DNA of 64,000 nt from Methyloligella sp. (lineage in GTDB: Bacteria; Pseudomonadota; Alphaproteobacteria; Rhizobiales; HXMU1428-3), in the NCBI GenBank assembly GCA_021604645.1, contig BQJJ01000004.1, forward strand, positions 186,001-250,000. The letters are read 5' to 3'. The translations under genes and the position numbers were made by a program. The notes below the pieces were generated by a model. That model did not search any database. It worked only from the letters and a program-made list of their open reading frames with translations, and was not told the DNA's origin. Shown here piece after piece: positions 4,112 through 55,788 of this stretch (position 1 is its first letter; every line of letters begins with the position of its first letter).

Positions 4112-4182
4112 TGTCTCACGGGCGATGGGCACGAAGTGCCCGCCCTGCGACGGCGCGGGGCTAAGCCCCGACGGCTTCTTTT
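4112..4182 (+). repeat. Family A structured repeat, short copy A2
   Basis: Starts GTCTCACGGGC, 3 bp past the peroxiredoxin stop. Hairpins: GGGCAC/GTGCCC with a GAA loop, bracketed by GGC/GCC, and CGGGGC/GCCCCG with a TAA loop (4156-4170). The second hairpin is the counterpart of CGGTGC-TAA-GCACCG in copy A7, so one base pair has changed in both arms. The third and fourth hairpins are missing; the copy ends CGGCTTCTT and runs directly into a family B unit. Confidence 0.7.
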
Positions 4183-4219
4183 AGTTGCGTTTTAGGTTGC
4201 CCACCAGCAACCGCACTGA
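4183..4219 (+). repeat. Family B hairpin
   Basis: Inner stem GTTGC/GCAAC with loop CCACCA; outer arms TGCG and CGCA; 5' linker TTTTAG, where other copies have TTCAG. It lies between repeat A2 and the terminator at 4292, so it is probably part of the peroxiredoxin mRNA. Confidence 0.65.
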
Positions 4220-4291
4220 GGCCTACGTTTTTTGTCTTCTGCAGATTGCAGATTGTCGGATAAGGGCTTTGATACTAAATGAAAGAAAATC

Positions 4292-5457: not shown

Positions 5458-5477
5458 TTTCTTATTCTTTCTCTTTT

Positions 5478-5620
5478 TAGTGGCGCTTCAGATGCCCACA
5501 AAGCATCCGCGCTATTAAGTGGCGCTTCAATGCCCACTAGCATCTGCGTTATTAAGTGGCGCTTAAGTTGCCTTTTTTAGTGGGCCTTCAGGTTTCCCAC
5601 CAGAAACCGGCCCGCGAGTA
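5478..5620 (+). repeat. Tandem array of family B hairpins (about 4 units)
   Basis: Unit 1 (5478-5516): outer TAGTGGCGC/GCGCTATTA, a 9-bp stem with two G.U pairs, and inner GATGC/GCATC. Unit 2 (5517-5554): inner ATGC/GCAT in the same frame. Unit 3 (5555-5578) has only a 5' half (GGCGCTTAAGTTGC) ending in a T-run. Unit 4 (5579-5615): outer GGGCC/GGCCC and inner GGTTTC/GAAACC. Stems differ between units while pairing is kept. The array lies upstream of the aminotransferase gene on its coding strand. Confidence 0.8.
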
Positions 5621-5665
5621 ACCATCGAATTTTGTGCTCTTGGTTTGAGTTTGTGGGGCAAGTAG

Positions 5666-12539: not shown

Positions 12540-12556
12540 GTTGTTCTTTTTTGTTT

Positions 12557-12585
12557 GTGCTTCAGTTGCCCACCAGCAACCGCAC
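12557..12585 (+). repeat. Family B hairpin
   Basis: Textbook copy: outer GTGC/GCAC, linker TTCA, inner GTTGC/GCAAC, loop CCACCA. It lies only 17 bp upstream of the bluB start codon, on the opposite strand, inside the probable bluB leader, and 5 bp before repeat A3. Confidence 0.8.
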
Positions 12586-12590
12586 TTGTT

Positions 12591-12763
12591 TTCTCTCACG
12601 GCTATTTCAAAACGCTGTCGTGTTTGAGCCTCCGAGGGGCGGCATTTCTTACGATCAGCTTGTCCGTGCTTGCTAAGCTCCGCTCGGGCTGATCTTGTGC
12701 GCCGGGCTGCGCTGGCACTTCGCCATGTCCCTCAGCCCTAAAAACGGCTGAGCTCCTTCTTTG
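12591..12763 (+). repeat. Family A structured repeat, long copy A3
   Basis: Starts TTCTCTCACGGCTATTTC and ends GCTCCTTCTTTG. The conserved linker CCTCCGAGGGGCGG is at about 12630-12643. Hairpins include CAAA..CG/CGTGTTTG (imperfect), a long-range GATCAGC/GCTGATC stem (12653-12659, 12688-12694) enclosing AGCTT/AAGCT, TGGC/GCCA, and CTCAGCC/GGCTGAG (12731-12752). At about 170 bp it is the largest copy. The remaining gap to 12932 carries two decayed B-like sequences (near 12791-12825 and 12848-12880) and no gene. Confidence 0.7.
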
Positions 12764-14719: not shown

Positions 14720-15334
14720 ATGAAAATCAGTTTAGAGGTTGGTAAAGCCAGAGAGTTAGATGATAGCTTGGTATCTTCTGGTCAAGGACTTTCTTCCAAT
14801 CAAGGATTGTGGGTTTTTGGTTATGGCTCTCTTATGTGGCGGCCTGAATTTTCTTATGAGTACCGGGTAAAGGGGCGATGCGCTGGGTTGCAGCGTTCGT
14901 TTTGTGTGCGCTCTGTTCATCATCGGGGGTCTTATGCTCAACCCGGTTTGGTTCTTGGACTTGATCGGGGAGGGGCTTGTGACGGGGTGTTGTTTTATGT
15001 GCCTCGACCGCAAGCTTTACAAACACTGACTTATTTGCGCAAGCGAGAGCAAGTGACACGGGTTTACAAAGAGCTTTATATGCCTGTTGAGTTGCTAGAT
15101 GGTAGTGGCCGAGTTTGTAGAGCTTTATGTTATGTGGCTGACCGAGGACATAAGCAATATATTGGTTCGCTATCGGTTCAGAGAAAAGCTGATATTATTA
15201 AGCGGTGTGTTGGTCGATCTGGTAAGAATATTGATTATTTTCTCTCAACTTTGCGCCATATGGATGAGCTTGGGTTTTATGATGCAGAGCTTAAGCGGAT
15301 CTTGGCGCTGACGGGTTGTGCTTATAGATTGTAG
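14720..15334 (+). CDS. chaC: Gamma-glutamylcyclotransferase, ChaC family
   Basis: About 204 residues. ChaC-type enzymes cleave glutathione to 5-oxoproline and Cys-Gly. The substrate loop WVFGYGSLMW is at 31-40, followed by RVKGRCAGLQRSFCVRSVHHRGS and CDGVLFYVP; an acidic residue in LRKREQV stands where the catalytic Glu of the family is expected. The start is uncertain: ATG at 14720 is preferred, while an in-frame TTG at 14702 would add six residues. It lies close behind the methyltransferase gene and near gloB, which fits a glutathione theme. Confidence 0.9.
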   Translation: MKISLEVGKARELDDSLVSSGQGLSSNQGLWVFGYGSLMWRPEFSYEYRVKGRCAGLQRSFCVRSVHHRGSYAQPGLVLGLDRGGACDGVLFYVPRPQALQTLTYLRKREQVTRVYKELYMPVELLDGSGRVCRALCYVADRGHKQYIGSLSVQRKADIIKRCVGRSGKNIDYFLSTLRHMDELGFYDAELKRILALTGCAYRL

Positions 15335-15348
15335 GGGATAGAACCAGC

Positions 15349-15472
15349 ATTACGAAGAAGGAGTGACGCTTCTTCGGTGTCATGACTGGCGAACCGCAAA
15401 CGAAGTTCGGTGCCTAGCGCGGTTGCTAGTGGGAACTGAAGCGCCTCTAAAAAACAATAGCCGTGAGAGAGA
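15349..15472 (-). repeat. Family A structured repeat, copy A5 (contains a family B unit)
   Basis: Read on the minus strand it begins CTCTCTCACGGCTATTG, about 14 bp after the stop of the next minus-strand gene, and ends CTCCTTCTTCG. The first hairpin position is occupied by a family B unit (15417-15444; outer GCGC/GCGC, inner GTT/AAC). CGAAC/GTTCG and CGAAGAAG/CTTCTTCG stems follow. It is the only minus-strand copy in the window and keeps the sense, 3'-of-gene placement. Confidence 0.7.
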
Positions 15473-16850: not shown

Positions 16851-16865
16851 TAGAGCATCCTTTTT

Positions 16866-16980
16866 TCGATAGATTCATTTGAATGTTCTAGCTTCTTGCT
16901 TTAGCGTTCCTTTATGTGCTTCAGTTGCCCACTAGCAACCGCACTAACCTAAAACCGGTGCCCACTTTAAGGTGAAACGC
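16866..16980 (+). repeat. Composite repeat: family C-like tail, family B hairpin, family C
   Basis: AATGTTCTAG with a downstream CTTTAGCG block, then a perfect family B unit (16916-16944; outer GTGC/GCAC, inner GTTGC/GCAAC, loop CCACTA), then a family C unit (16946-16980: CCTAAAACCGGTGCCCAC followed by TTTAAGGTG). The same order occurs at 2315-2432. Confidence 0.65.
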
Positions 16981-17035
16981 AAAAATAAAATTCCTGTTAG
17001 GTCTTTGAATCGTTGGAAATTTCAACTTCAAAAAA

Positions 17036-18693: not shown

Positions 18694-18952
18694 TGGTCTA
18701 ATACCCTCTATTTGATGTGTTTTGGCTTGTTTTTTGAACTTTTCAACTGGCTAGGCTGTGTTTTATGAAAGTGCCGAAATTTATGTTTATCTTAGCCGCC
18801 ATTATTGACAGCAAAAAGTGTTTTGTAAATTTTATTTATCCTCTGAATGAGGCCAAAGCGGGGATAAGTCTGGAAAAGAAGGGCTTCTTTAATTATTTCT
18901 CGGTTATTTCTAGATATCTTTATGTTTTGAACCGCAATTGGTGCCCTTTATT

Positions 18953-20194
18953 ATGATTTTGGTTTGTCCAGAATGTTCGACCCATTATGAAATCCCTTCA
19001 GCTTTGCCTGAAGAGGGGACCAAGGTGCGTTGTACCAGCTGTACCCATGTCTGGATGGCGACCTCGGATGATGTTTTTGAAAATGCCGCTTTGGCAGAAG
19101 AAAGCACAAAAGCTAAAGAGGCAATCCCTGAAGTTGCTGATGTTGGTATTCCAGCGATTTCTCCTACTGATGAAGACCCTTTGGAAGAGCTTGATTTTGA
19201 AGAAATAGAAGAAGAGTTAGAAGATGGTGGGGACGAACTAGATCAAGCCGAATTGGATAGTTTGTTTGAAGAGATGGGTGTAGAACCTGAACCAGAGCCC
19301 GAGCCAGAACCAGAACCTGAAGAAGAAAACTCACAAGGTGACATTGATAGTCTGTTTGATGAAATGGGCGATGAACCTGAGGAAGAAAATTCTCAGGGTG
19401 ATATTGATAGCTTATTTGATGAAATGGGTGATGAACCTGAGGAAGAAAATTCTCAAGACGATATTGATGGTTTGTTTGATGAGCCTGCCGCCGAACCAGA
19501 AGAAGAAAACAATCAAGACGATATAGATGGATTATTTGATGAACCTTCCTCGGAAGAAGGAGAGGATAATTCTCAAGATGATATTGATGGGCTTTTTGAT
19601 GAAGACCCTCCAGCTGAAGAAAGCCCTGTAGAAGAGCCCGTTGAAGAACCAATTGCTGCTGCTACAGAAGATTTACAAGACCCATTTGAGAATGAAATTG
19701 AAGAGGATGACGACCAACCTGCGCCTGAGGCTGAGCCTGTTGCGGCCAAATTACCAATTTGGAAAAGAATGAGCCGAGAAGAAATGATCGGCTGGGGAAG
19801 TTATGGTCTTTCACTTGTCTTGGTTTTTGCCATTGTGATTTTTGCTCGGGTTTCGATTGTTAAAGCTATTCCAAGTATGGCAGGTGTTTATTCTGTTTTG
19901 GGCATGGATGTAAATGTGAGAGGATTAACATTTACGAATGTGCAGCAGAAATGGGTGATTGAAGATAACCGACTTTTATTAAAAGTTCAGGGTGAGGTTA
20001 CGAACCAAACGAATAGATATAAGACTTTACCTCCTATGGTTTTTGGAGCTGTTGGAACGGATAAAAAAGAAATTTTTCGTTGGGTTATGCGGGTGAGAAA
20101 AAAACCTTTATTGCCTGGAGAAAAAGCGCCTTTTATGGCGATGGTTCCTCTACCACCAAAACAAGCTAAGCATCTATTTATTAGTTTTCAGTGA
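18953..20194 (+). CDS. MJ0042-type zinc-ribbon membrane protein with acidic SQxDIDxLFDE repeats
   Basis: About 413 residues. The N-terminal zinc ribbon has Cys at 5, 8, 27 and 30 (CPEC and CTSC; MJ0042/TIGR02098 family). Residues 80-260 are very acidic. Five copies of a 20-residue repeat with core SQDDIDGLFDE start near 127, 147, 167, 187 and 207, and a diverged sixth (DQAELDSLFEE) is near 97. One TM segment (about 283-300) leads to a C-terminal extracytoplasmic domain of DUF3426 character. The family is usually divergent from ftsE, as here; its role is unknown. The ATG at 18953 precedes the Cys motif directly; a TTG at 18938 is possible. A CpdR-like receiver gene follows. Confidence 0.85.
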   Translation: MILVCPECSTHYEIPSALPEEGTKVRCTSCTHVWMATSDDVFENAALAEESTKAKEAIPEVADVGIPAISPTDEDPLEELDFEEIEEELEDGGDELDQAELDSLFEEMGVEPEPEPEPEPEPEEENSQGDIDSLFDEMGDEPEEENSQGDIDSLFDEMGDEPEEENSQDDIDGLFDEPAAEPEEENNQDDIDGLFDEPSSEEGEDNSQDDIDGLFDEDPPAEESPVEEPVEEPIAAATEDLQDPFENEIEEDDDQPAPEAEPVAAKLPIWKRMSREEMIGWGSYGLSLVLVFAIVIFARVSIVKAIPSMAGVYSVLGMDVNVRGLTFTNVQQKWVIEDNRLLLKVQGEVTNQTNRYKTLPPMVFGAVGTDKKEIFRWVMRVRKKPLLPGEKAPFMAMVPLPPKQAKHLFISFQ

Positions 20195-20196
20195 TG

Positions 20197-20312
20197 CCTC
20201 TCACGGCTATTCGATGAGCTGAAGCTCATCGGCCTACGAGGTGCGGCGGCTAGGCGCCGGGCAGCGGAAGCTGCCATGTCCTGGCGTCGAAGTGACGCCA
20301 CTCCTTCTTTGA
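20197..20312 (+). repeat. Family A structured repeat, copy A4 (best-paired copy)
   Basis: Starts CTCTCACGGCTATT 3 bp after the zinc-ribbon stop and ends CTCCTTCTTTG. All four hairpins are present: CGATGAGC/GCTCATCG with a TGAA loop (20212-20231), CGGCG/CGCCG (20244-20259), GGCAGC/GCTGCC with a GGAA loop (20260-20275), and TGGCGTC/GACGCCA with a GAAGT loop (20282-20300). Linker GGCCTACGAGGTG lies between hairpins 1 and 2, and ATGTCC lies before hairpin 4. Confidence 0.85.
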
Positions 20313-35319: not shown

Positions 35320-35336
35320 GTCGTCCTCATTCTTGA

Positions 35337-35550
35337 TCGCGCTTCAAATGCCCATATAACATCCGCGCTAGTTAGTTGCGCTTTAGATTGCCCGCAAGCA
35401 ACCGCGATTTTTAGTGCCCTTTAGGTTGCCTTTTTTGTGTTTCAGATACCCACAAAGCATCCGCAGGTGCACCCGCGCTGTTTAATCGCCCCTTCAGGTT
35501 GCCGATCAGCAAAGATGCACAGCATCAGCTATAACAACCGGAGTTTTAAT
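35337..35550 (+). repeat. Tandem array of family B hairpins, partly degraded
   Basis: At least four units upstream of the hbd start: GCGC..ATG/CAT..GCGC (35338-35370), GCGC with TTGC/GCAA (35378-35407), a 5' half only (35410-35436: TTTAGTGCCC, then TTAGGTTGCC and a T-run), and a unit GATAC..GCATC (35438-35465) followed by CGCCCCTTCAGGTTGC (about 35487), whose 3' partner ACAACCGG is delayed to 35542 by an interposed AGATGCACAGCATC sequence. 35551-35690 is AT-rich with nothing recognisable. Confidence 0.65.
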
Positions 35551-35691: not shown

Positions 35692-35815
35692 AGATTTTTT
35701 GCTGTGCTTCAGATGCCCACTATGCATCGGCACTTTTAGTGGCGCTTCAGTTTGCCTACAAGCAACCACGCTGGCGTCATGTCCTAACGTAGAAGTGGTG
35801 CTGCTCCTTCTGAGT
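35692..35815 (+). repeat. Family A structured repeat, copy A6 (two family B units as modules)
   Basis: Framed by TTCTCTCACAGATT at the 5' end and GCTCCTTCTGAG at the 3' end. The inner hairpins are family B units: GTGC/GCAC with GATGC/GCATC (35704-35732), and GCGC..TTGC/GCAA..CGC (35741-35771). The ATGTCC linker follows at about 35779. Confidence 0.65.
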
Positions 35816-37621: not shown

Positions 37622-37645
37622 TTATGTGGCCCTCCACTTGTTTCT

Positions 37646-37711
37646 GTTTCAGATGCTCTTATTTAGCGTGACTTCAGGTTGCCCACTAGCAACCGGCACA
37701 AGCATCCACCT
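37646..37711 (+). repeat. Family B hairpin nested inside another family B hairpin
   Basis: The outer unit TTCAGATGC (37649-37657) finds its partner GCATCC only at 37703-37708. Between them lies a complete inner unit, GTGACTTCA then GGTTGC/GCAACC then GGCAC, with loop CCACTA. The outer 5' half stops at a CTCTTATTTAG sequence, like other interrupted units. The rest of gap 37712-37970 shows no gene. Confidence 0.65.
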
Positions 37712-37970
37712 GGTTTGTTGGGATATACTTTAACTTTCAAAAGCCAATAGCTGATAAAAATTGCTGAAAGATTTCAAGCAGCAATTTTTTTCAATTGCTT
37801 CCAGAATAATCGAGCGTGTTCAGCGTATCCTTTTGTTGGAAATTAGTCAGACGGAACCTAACTGCCATAAAATAGGCTGTCAATAGAGTTGCAGAGCCCT
37901 CTGGTCTAAGGTTCAAGATGTACAAGTCTAATGTTCAAAAAGATCAGGCCTAACGCTCAGGTCAATAAAG

Positions 37971-40746: not shown

Positions 40747-40809
40747 GAAAATGAGCTTTTTTTGAATGTTTATGTTTGCGCTTTAGATTGCCCAGTTGTT
40801 GTAATTGGG

Positions 40810-47195: not shown

Positions 47196-47312
47196 CTCTC
47201 ACGGCTATTCCAAGCGCTTAAGGCGCTTGGGCCTCCGAGGGGCGGTGCTAAGCACCGGACGCCTTTGGCGTCATGTCCCCCAGCCCGAAAATGGGCTGAG
47301 CTCCTTCTTCAG
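47196..47312 (+). repeat. Family A structured repeat, copy A7 (complete)
   Basis: Starts TCTCTCACGGCTATT, 27 bp after the methyltransferase stop, with an extra partial start CTCACGGGCTATTG at 47174. All four hairpins are present: CCAAGCGC/GCGCTTGG (47210-47230), CGGTGC/GCACCG with a TAA loop (47243-47257), GACGCC/GGCGTC with a TTT loop (47258-47272), and CAGCCC/GGGCTG (47281-47298). The linkers are GCCTCCGAGGGG and ATGTCCCC, and the 3' end is GCTCCTTCTTC. Confidence 0.85.
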
Positions 47313-47332: not shown

Positions 47333-47398
47333 TTTAGTTGCACTTTTTATGTGAGTCTTCAGTTGCCCACTAGCAATCAGCATAAGTAACCGCGCTAA
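47333..47398 (+). repeat. Family B hairpin, probably nested
   Basis: The inner unit GTCTTCAGTTGC/GCAAT (loop CCACTA) sits between an outer 5' half TTTAGTTGC (47334-47342) and a 3' half GTAACCGCGC (47386-47395), the same nested plan seen at 37646-37711. It reaches the stop of the convergent gene. Confidence 0.55.
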
Positions 47399-54230: not shown

Positions 54231-54350
54231 TTCTCACGGCTATTCTATGAGCTAATGCTCAAAGGCCTCCGAAGGGGCGGTGCTTGCGCCGGGCTGCGCT
54301 GGCGCTTCGCCATGCCCTGACGCTGAAAAGGCGTCATTCCTTCTTCGTGA
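54231..54350 (+). repeat. Family A structured repeat, copy A8 (complete)
   Basis: Starts TTCTCACGGCTATT and ends TTCCTTCTTCGTGA; TCACG and CGTGA at the ends can pair. Hairpins: TGAGC/GCTCA with a TAAT loop (54248-54261), CGGTG/CGCCG with one G.U pair (54278-54291), TGGCG/CGCCA (54300-54312), and TGACGC/GCGTCA (54318-54336). The linker GGCCTCCGAAGGGG is conserved. Unlike other copies, it follows a terminator. Confidence 0.85.
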
Positions 54351-55601: not shown

Positions 55602-55637
55602 AAAAAAAGGACAAAGCTTAATGCCTTGTCCTTTTTG
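55602..55637 (-). terminator. Rho-independent terminator of the peptidoglycan-binding-domain gene
   Basis: An 11-bp stem AAAAAGGACAA/TTGTCCTTTTT. On the minus strand it ends in a T7 run, about 150 bp after the stop of the next minus-strand gene, with a family B array in between. It also has T5 on the plus strand. Confidence 0.75.
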
Positions 55638-55639
55638 TT

Positions 55640-55786
55640 GGCGCTTCAGATTGCCCACTAGCAACCGCGCTATTGTATGCGCTTCAGGTTGCTCTCTTTA
55701 GTGAGCCTTCAGTTGCCTACTAGCAACCGGCTTAACCAACCGTGCTTTACATTTGCGCTTTAGGTTGCCCATAACCAACCGCGCTG
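55640..55786 (+). repeat. Family B array with a nested unit
   Basis: Unit 1 (55641-55670): GCGC/GCGC, TTGC/GCAA, loop CCACTA. Unit 2 (55679-55744): GCGCTTCAGGTTGC with its partner AACCAACC at about 55733, interrupted by a full inner unit GAGCC, then GTTGC/GCAAC, then GGCTT. Unit 3 (55754-55784): GCGCTTTAGGTTGC with ACCAACCGCGC. All are on the plus strand, opposite to the neighbouring gene. Confidence 0.8.
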
Positions 55787-55788
55787 TA

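Follow-up and report, generated by a model that had tools for sequence, protein, structure and literature searches.

Intergenic hairpin repeats of Methyloligella nested in the loops of their own kind suggest a preferred landing site for a dispersed element

The stretch of DNA analysed here, which we call the window, is 64 kb long and corresponds to positions 186001-250000 of contig C4 (BQJJ01000004.1) of Methyloligella sp. (G000; assembly GCA_021604645.1, a 3.57-Mb draft in 27 contigs). With G000, seven congeners make up the eight genus genomes that we compared, among them that of a sister species (G002). Dispersed along the window are copies of a hairpin of about 40 nt, the family B unit. Each unit opens with a 5' head made of a T run and a TAGTG-like stretch, and contains a basal stem of 4-5 bp (GGCGC/GCGC, TGTGC/GCAC and others), a bulge left unpaired on the 5' side (TTCA in 191 of 238 units, TTTA in 30) and an upper stem of 5-6 bp, which is interchangeably GTTGC/GCAAC, GATGC/GCATC or GTTTC/GAAAC and carries a loop starting with CCAC. 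The TTCA bulge and the CCAC of the loop are the best conserved portions of the unit.

Simple units, on the plus strand except where stated, stand alone at 12547-12589, in tandem pairs at 35694-35775 and 5473-5553, and as two simple units together with an unbalanced nest, which has the 5' outer arm alone, at 35329-35471. The first unit of 5473-5553 has the stem GATGC/GCATC in G000 and GGTTGC/GCAACC at the same site of G002. Another simple unit, at 4177-4220, lies within a family A repeat, and its G002 orthologue holds a second B unit in the loop. The sole minus-strand unit found in the window is at 15413-15454. Two palindromic elements, of 131 bp (2296-2426) and 132 bp (16851-16982), read TAGAGC...CCTAAAACCGGT...CCACTTTAAGG... 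and hold one simple B unit each, at 2353-2395 and 16906-16948, respectively; G002 has 0 bp at both places, and similar elements of G002 are missing from G000. The family A repeat is composed of several hairpins (CTCTCACGGCTATTC ... GCCATGTCC ... CTCCTTCTTCG), with copies at 1513-1561, 12698-12761, 20199-20239, 47197-47309 and 54232-54317 and many more beyond the window, some of which carry B in one loop (e.g. C4:69703). We also observed an open reading frame at 18938-20194 (plus strand). Its product opens with a zinc-ribbon-like CxxC motif, probably has a membrane helix, and contains some six NSQxDIDxLFDE-like repeats of 20 residues in tandem that we take to resemble the CheY-binding motif of FliM. 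An Rfam search of the window matched only a cobalamin riboswitch (RF00174; 55235-55478, minus strand, 68.5 bits) and left the B units unmatched.

The initial annotation had described complete B units that separate the two halves of other B units whose arms still pair, and at 37646-37711 and 55679-55744 this is read directly from perfect outer arms of 5 bp. In the first nested pair (37652-37706, plus strand), GATGC at 37652-37656 and GCATC at 37702-37706 enclose an inner unit at 37657-37701, which has its TTCA at 37673 and the stem GGTTGC (37677-37682)/GCAACC (37689-37694) around the loop CCACTA. In the second (55687-55741, plus strand), the outer arms are GGTTG (55687-55691) and CAACC (55737-55741), the inner arms are GTTGC (55712-55716) and GCAAC (55723-55727), and the interior reads GAGCC-TTCA-GTTGC-CTACTA-GCAAC-CGGCTT; simple units lie upstream of it, at 55631-55674, right behind a terminator-like hairpin and T run, and downstream, at 55745-55788. 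The intervals 47333-47398 and 5555-5620, which had been graded as probable nests, have the same architecture in a weaker form, with one G-T wobble each, and that grading is retained. At 47337-47390 (plus strand), GTTGC (47337-47341) pairs with GTAAC (47386-47390) around an inner hairpin at 47358-47377; at 5567-5622 (plus strand), adjoining the tandem pair at 5473-5553, GTTGC (5567-5571) pairs with GTAAC (5618-5622) around an inner hairpin GGTTTC..GAAACC at 5591-5608.

A covariance model made from 16 units of the window gave 94 matches in 444 kb of G000 at E values of 1 or less; extrapolated from the 444 kb scanned, the whole genome holds roughly 650-750 copies. Matches were obtained in all seven congeners: 3 in G001, 28 in G004, 41 in G005 and at least 94 to 99 in each of the others. 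Outside the genus, three weaker matches came from a single genome that belongs to another family, and no match came from the remaining 52 genomes of the order that were searched with the model. For the EtfB protein, the closest named record was a Hyphomicrobiales metagenome-assembled genome, at 93% identity. Family B is restricted to the genus. The units are intergenic, with only 3 of 189 inside open reading frames. Among 56 orthologous pairs of units the core is identical in 23, and at orthologous sites whole stems are swapped (e.g. GATGC/GCATC to GGTTGC/GCAACC) in a manner that preserves pairing.

Folded as DNA, the pair at 37646 and a triple nest elsewhere recover both levels; at 55679, 47333 and 5555 the outer stem is not recovered and other folds are favoured. 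Given that the outer stem is unfolded in these three window cases, each single nest is thermodynamically marginal and weak alone, and the statistical support for nesting comes from the whole set and not from single cases. The set covers 2.1 Mb of G000 and G002, with about 17% non-ORF DNA and 273 B units, of which 24 lie within a B-type outer pair; 200 shuffles of the downstream flanks gave 3.9 on average and 10 at most. A stricter independent scan found 28 of 238 units nested, the chance expectation being 1.6 (maximum 5) from the flanks of non-nested units, or 5.8 (maximum 14) with all flanks shuffled; a looser scan, with 67 nests against 39 by chance, was too crude and is superseded by the stricter ones. 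If units landed at random in intergenic DNA, we estimate that about one nest would be expected (273 loops of about 6 nt, or about 1.6 kb of loop, in about 360 kb of non-ORF DNA). It is hardly credible that the nests are chance pairings of short arms in a repeat-rich region: the arm pairs are indeed only 5-6 bp, three of the four window cases fail to fold at two levels and generic outer arms around B are not above chance; however, B-type outer pairs reach six times the shuffled-flank mean, the junction is fixed, and simple and nested alternatives occur at one locus. Chance is refuted for family B overall, and the single weak cases at 47333 and 5555 may be due to it. The notion that B lands in any hairpin loop was also rejected, the generic outer arms being no commoner than by chance (41 against 35, 11 against 10, 3 against 2; non-nested units). 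A few exact family A and palindrome loops do contain B units.

The nests include a triple nest (L076) and a loop in which two hairpins lie side by side as a three-way junction (L063). Nine nests have GTTGC as the outer and GATGC as the inner stem, nine have GATGC outside and GTTGC or GTTTC inside, six are GTTGC in GTTGC, and none is GATGC in GATGC (Fisher p 0.004). This variety of outer and inner combinations rules out a single composite that was copied around. We also observed that GCC precedes TTCA in 9 of 28 nested units and in 7 of 210 others (p 8e-6), and that GTTTC stems are found in 5 of 28 and 6 of 210, respectively (p 0.004), these three p values being somewhat optimistic since orthologous copies of the two species were counted separately. 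The inner units are thus a biased subset of B, marked by basal stems of the type xGCC..GGCx or TGC..GCA. Some subtypes may enter loops more easily than others, or nests with equal arms may be quickly lost, or the basal stem may change after nesting.

Alignment of the nested cases places the junction consistently inside the loop, and no target-site duplication was seen there. On the 5' side, the outer arm is followed by C, T or CCAC and then by TCTTTTTAGTG or a variant; on the 3' side, the inner basal stem ends, 0-3 A/T follow and the outer arm comes next. In the cleanest split loop (G2C2r 12684, in the reversed C2 stretch of G002), CCACTA is cut as CCAC^TA by an insert of 41 nt and both halves are kept: GGTTGC CCAC is followed by the insert, TCTTTTAAGGGCGCC TTCA GATGC CCACTAT GCATC CGGCG, and then by TA GCAACC. 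In other nests, CCAC is retained on the 5' side or lost, and the loop is partly replaced. The C/T-rich sequence that had been noticed at the 5' junction is present, as TCTTTTTAGTG and its variants, but it belongs to the inner unit, as its 5' part, and is not left over from the interrupted half, since free-standing B units carry the same CTTTTT stretch.

Comparison among relatives revealed that a given site may be empty in one genome and simple or nested in another. At 4178, G000 and G006 have a simple unit, G003 has the family A host without the unit, and G002 has a nest, GGTTGG-CTTTTCTTTGC-TTCAAATGC..GCATCCGCAATGA-GCAACC, at the orthologous place; as the unit is simple in both G000 and G006, the nest is, by parsimony, a gain in the G002 line. 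Nesting is therefore not the ancestral state everywhere, and this is the one clear gain of a nest that we found. At 37646, positions 37641-37714 are absent from G002, and G003 and G006 hold the outer 5' half with different inner content; judging from these alignments, G002 most likely lost the nest. The three-unit block at 55679 is present in G000 and G002 and in neither G003 nor G006; at 47333, a single degenerate hairpin is all that G002 has; and at 5555, G002 has the same arrangement and G003 a different nest. Beyond the window, C4:28349 is nested in G000, G003 and G006 and simple in G002, C4:80457 is nested in G002 and G003 and simple in G000, C4:156150 is nested in G002 and collapsed in G000, and at two of these loci a nest common to an outgroup is missing from one species. 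Several nests predate the species split and were later lost or collapsed, so most cannot be polarised as gains. Contrary to what had been suggested, nesting gives no reliable relative order of insertion: some nests have disappeared or collapsed (C4:28349 in G002; C4:80457 and C4:156150 in G000), composites duplicate in tandem, and, with turnover in both directions among relatives, a nest cannot serve as a one-way clock.

Between G000 and G002, units and even whole nests are commonly gained and lost in tandem, and several sites compare as 0 bp against about 100-190 bp. At the G002 site that corresponds to window position 40777, there are three near-identical tandem 40-bp copies of B and a fourth variant where G000 has one decayed unit, which by its sequence looks like a recent tandem expansion. 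Nests might be the product of rearrangement in tandem arrays, in which slippage or recombination removes a 3' half from one unit and a 5' half from another, so that the arm order a-a-b-b results with no insertion. The frequency with which units of 33-50 bp are gained and lost between G000 and G002 speaks for such a process, as do the tandem duplication of the composites themselves, the existence of one-armed forms (24 with the 5' arm only and 34 with the 3' arm only, chance matches included) and the simple form of C4:28349 in G002, which fits a deletion between direct repeats. However, two independent matched deletions would be required, at 4178 neither the simple unit, which stands alone, nor the nest has a tandem neighbour, and the CCAC^TA split retains both loop halves. 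Insertion into a loop yields a-a-b-b in one step, which tandem duplication or deletion in alternating arrays cannot do. We consider rearrangement an unlikely, though not a negligible, source of the nests, and the insertion of B into its own loop appears well supported by the sequences compared.

The orientation of B is nearly uniform along each contig: 56:1 in C4, 36:2 in C3, 57:1 in the syntenic stretch of G002 C1 and 92:3 in G002 C3, which is not collinear with G000 C3 and corresponds to G000 C1. In the sampled C2 it is reversed, with 34 units on the minus strand and 4 on the plus. GC skew is positive in C4 and most of C3 and negative in C2, so that B lies on the G-rich strand in these contigs. 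By the usual convention, the G-rich strand is the lagging-strand template. The whole of G002 C3 and positions 280000-396800 of G000 C3 have almost zero GC skew, and the orientation of B is still uniform there; these regions are possibly the terminus region or a second replicon. Orientation is likely tied to replication, a link that stops short of proof given that the skew of G002 C3 is near zero and its ratio is nonetheless 92:3. Transcription does not account for the orientation, for flanking genes run both ways.

Relative to B, the strands of the flanking genes around 185 units of G000 C3 and C4 and G002 C1 and C3 are -- in 85 cases, +- in 51, ++ in 32 and -+ in 17. Divergent gene pairs are avoided (17 of 185), and the right-hand gene is on the opposite strand in 136 of 185, which places B mostly at the 3' ends of genes. 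A preference of this kind could mean that the nested forms are selected structured elements of RNA or DNA, for instance multi-hairpins with a 3'-end or regulatory role. In keeping with selection, the TTCA bulge and CCAC loop are the parts most conserved, the outer arms remain paired in variants like GGTTGT/ACAACC, and the nest at C4:80457 is common to G002 and G003. Against it, orientation tracks the contig strand and not the transcript, a single locus can be empty, simple or nested among close species, and the only structured RNA that Rfam recognised is the cobalamin riboswitch. We regard a selected structure as improbable.

We looked for enzymes that could move B. Y1 transposase was rejected, for Y1_Tnp (PF01797) is found only in G000 and in none of the seven congeners. 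G000 has two Y1 genes, each about 224 codons long and separated by 3.5 kb (G000:C1:11499-11819 and 15047-15370; L080 and L079), and no B unit lies within about 1.5 kb of either. Reverse transcriptase was likewise rejected, RVT_1 being absent from G000 and G002. A guide model, in which the head TAGTGG would pair with the loop CCCACTA, gained no support: complementarity within units, taken as a proxy for target pairing, is not above that of shuffled units (48 of 300 shuffles reach it). These results bear on the idea that B is a REP/REPIN-type repeat mobilised by a REP-associated tyrosine transposase (TnpA-REP). An intergenic hairpin with hundreds of copies, a TAGTGG-like head and a strand preference resembling IS200/IS605-type single-strand transposition (PMC6006769) would suit it; however, GT[AG]G occurs near the foot of the hairpin in just 50 of 273 units, Y1_Tnp is missing from 7 of the 8 genus genomes and distant from B in G000, and B units do not form inverted doublets, neighbours reading in the same direction. 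We hold this origin to be very doubtful.

The nests had initially been read as the trace of a mobile hairpin that targets its own loop. The consistent junction, the paired outer hairpin and the alternative states among species agree with that reading; the non-random choice of inner units does not, and no target-site duplication was found. On balance, we think it rather likely that B is a non-autonomous dispersed hairpin of about 40 nt that has spread through intergenic DNA in one genus and for which its own loop is a preferred landing site. From presence or absence between species we infer that B may be actively mobile. A B unit would land between CCAC and the final loop bases of an existing B unit, with no detectable target duplication. 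The event would take place at the replication fork while the DNA is single-stranded, as the one-strand orientation of B suggests, probably on the lagging-strand template, where loops would be exposed. Copying might be performed by a putative single-strand transposase acting in trans, or it might occur through polymerase template switching between hairpins, and insertion would be followed by slippage and deletion. Template switching between hairpins would yield similar products with no need for an enzyme, and quasi-palindrome correction could generate stem swaps. The more specific proposal, that B is a single-strand mobile hairpin which targets hairpin loops, above all its own, by means of an enzyme other than a Y1 transposase or a reverse transcriptase, and that its multi-level nests record overlapping rounds of insertion and loss, we advance only tentatively. 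The basal-stem bias of the inner units is evidence against the loop-landing explanation as a whole, as free landing of any B does not predict it.

To our knowledge, small dispersed hairpins are common in bacteria, and how they spread is unclear except for REP/RAYT. The small dispersed repeats of cyanobacteria that Elhai is said to have described in 2008 are reportedly very small and thought to be mobile; B is like them in size and presumed mobility, a likeness drawn from description only. In the literature that we searched, which did not extend to comparison with these cyanobacterial repeats, we found no description of a repeat in bacteria that nests within its own loop, and since they lie outside the comparison we claim novelty for B only as a variant. 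With copies in the hundreds, an almost uniform strand, nesting specific to loops, and gains and losses among closely related species, family B would preserve, in nature, the traces of single-strand insertion or template switching; it is also a place to look for a new enzyme.

In kind, family B is like REP/REPIN and mitochondrial hairpin elements, yet it departs from REP in the features that define it. Like REP/REPIN, it consists of short intergenic hairpins that are genus-specific, number in the hundreds and undergo compensatory stem changes (PMC3116915, PMC3733652, PMC6006769); unlike them, it has no conserved GT[AG]G foot and no linked Y1 gene, and it shows direct tandems, a uniform strand and nesting in its own loop. 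Some REP families are located inside other palindromes (PMC3733652). If the proposed mechanism is true, B would match the single-strand transposition of IS200/IS605 in strand preference and hairpin recognition (PMC6006769), but most genomes that carry B are without Y1 and there is no signal of pairing between head and loop. The GC clusters of yeast mitochondria are likewise small mobile palindromes present in some strains and absent from others, and their merger and shuffling are reported; they differ from B in being organellar, in their sequence and in their target, AG, and loop-specific nesting is not described in the text consulted (PMC4478555). Finally, B is like the double-hairpin and repetitive hairpin-forming elements of mitochondria (Allomyces, sponges), which are mostly intergenic and occur as single or multiple hairpins of the same family per site; those hairpins, however, are arranged in tandem and not nested, and their stems are conserved and their loops variable, the opposite of B (PMC2800124).
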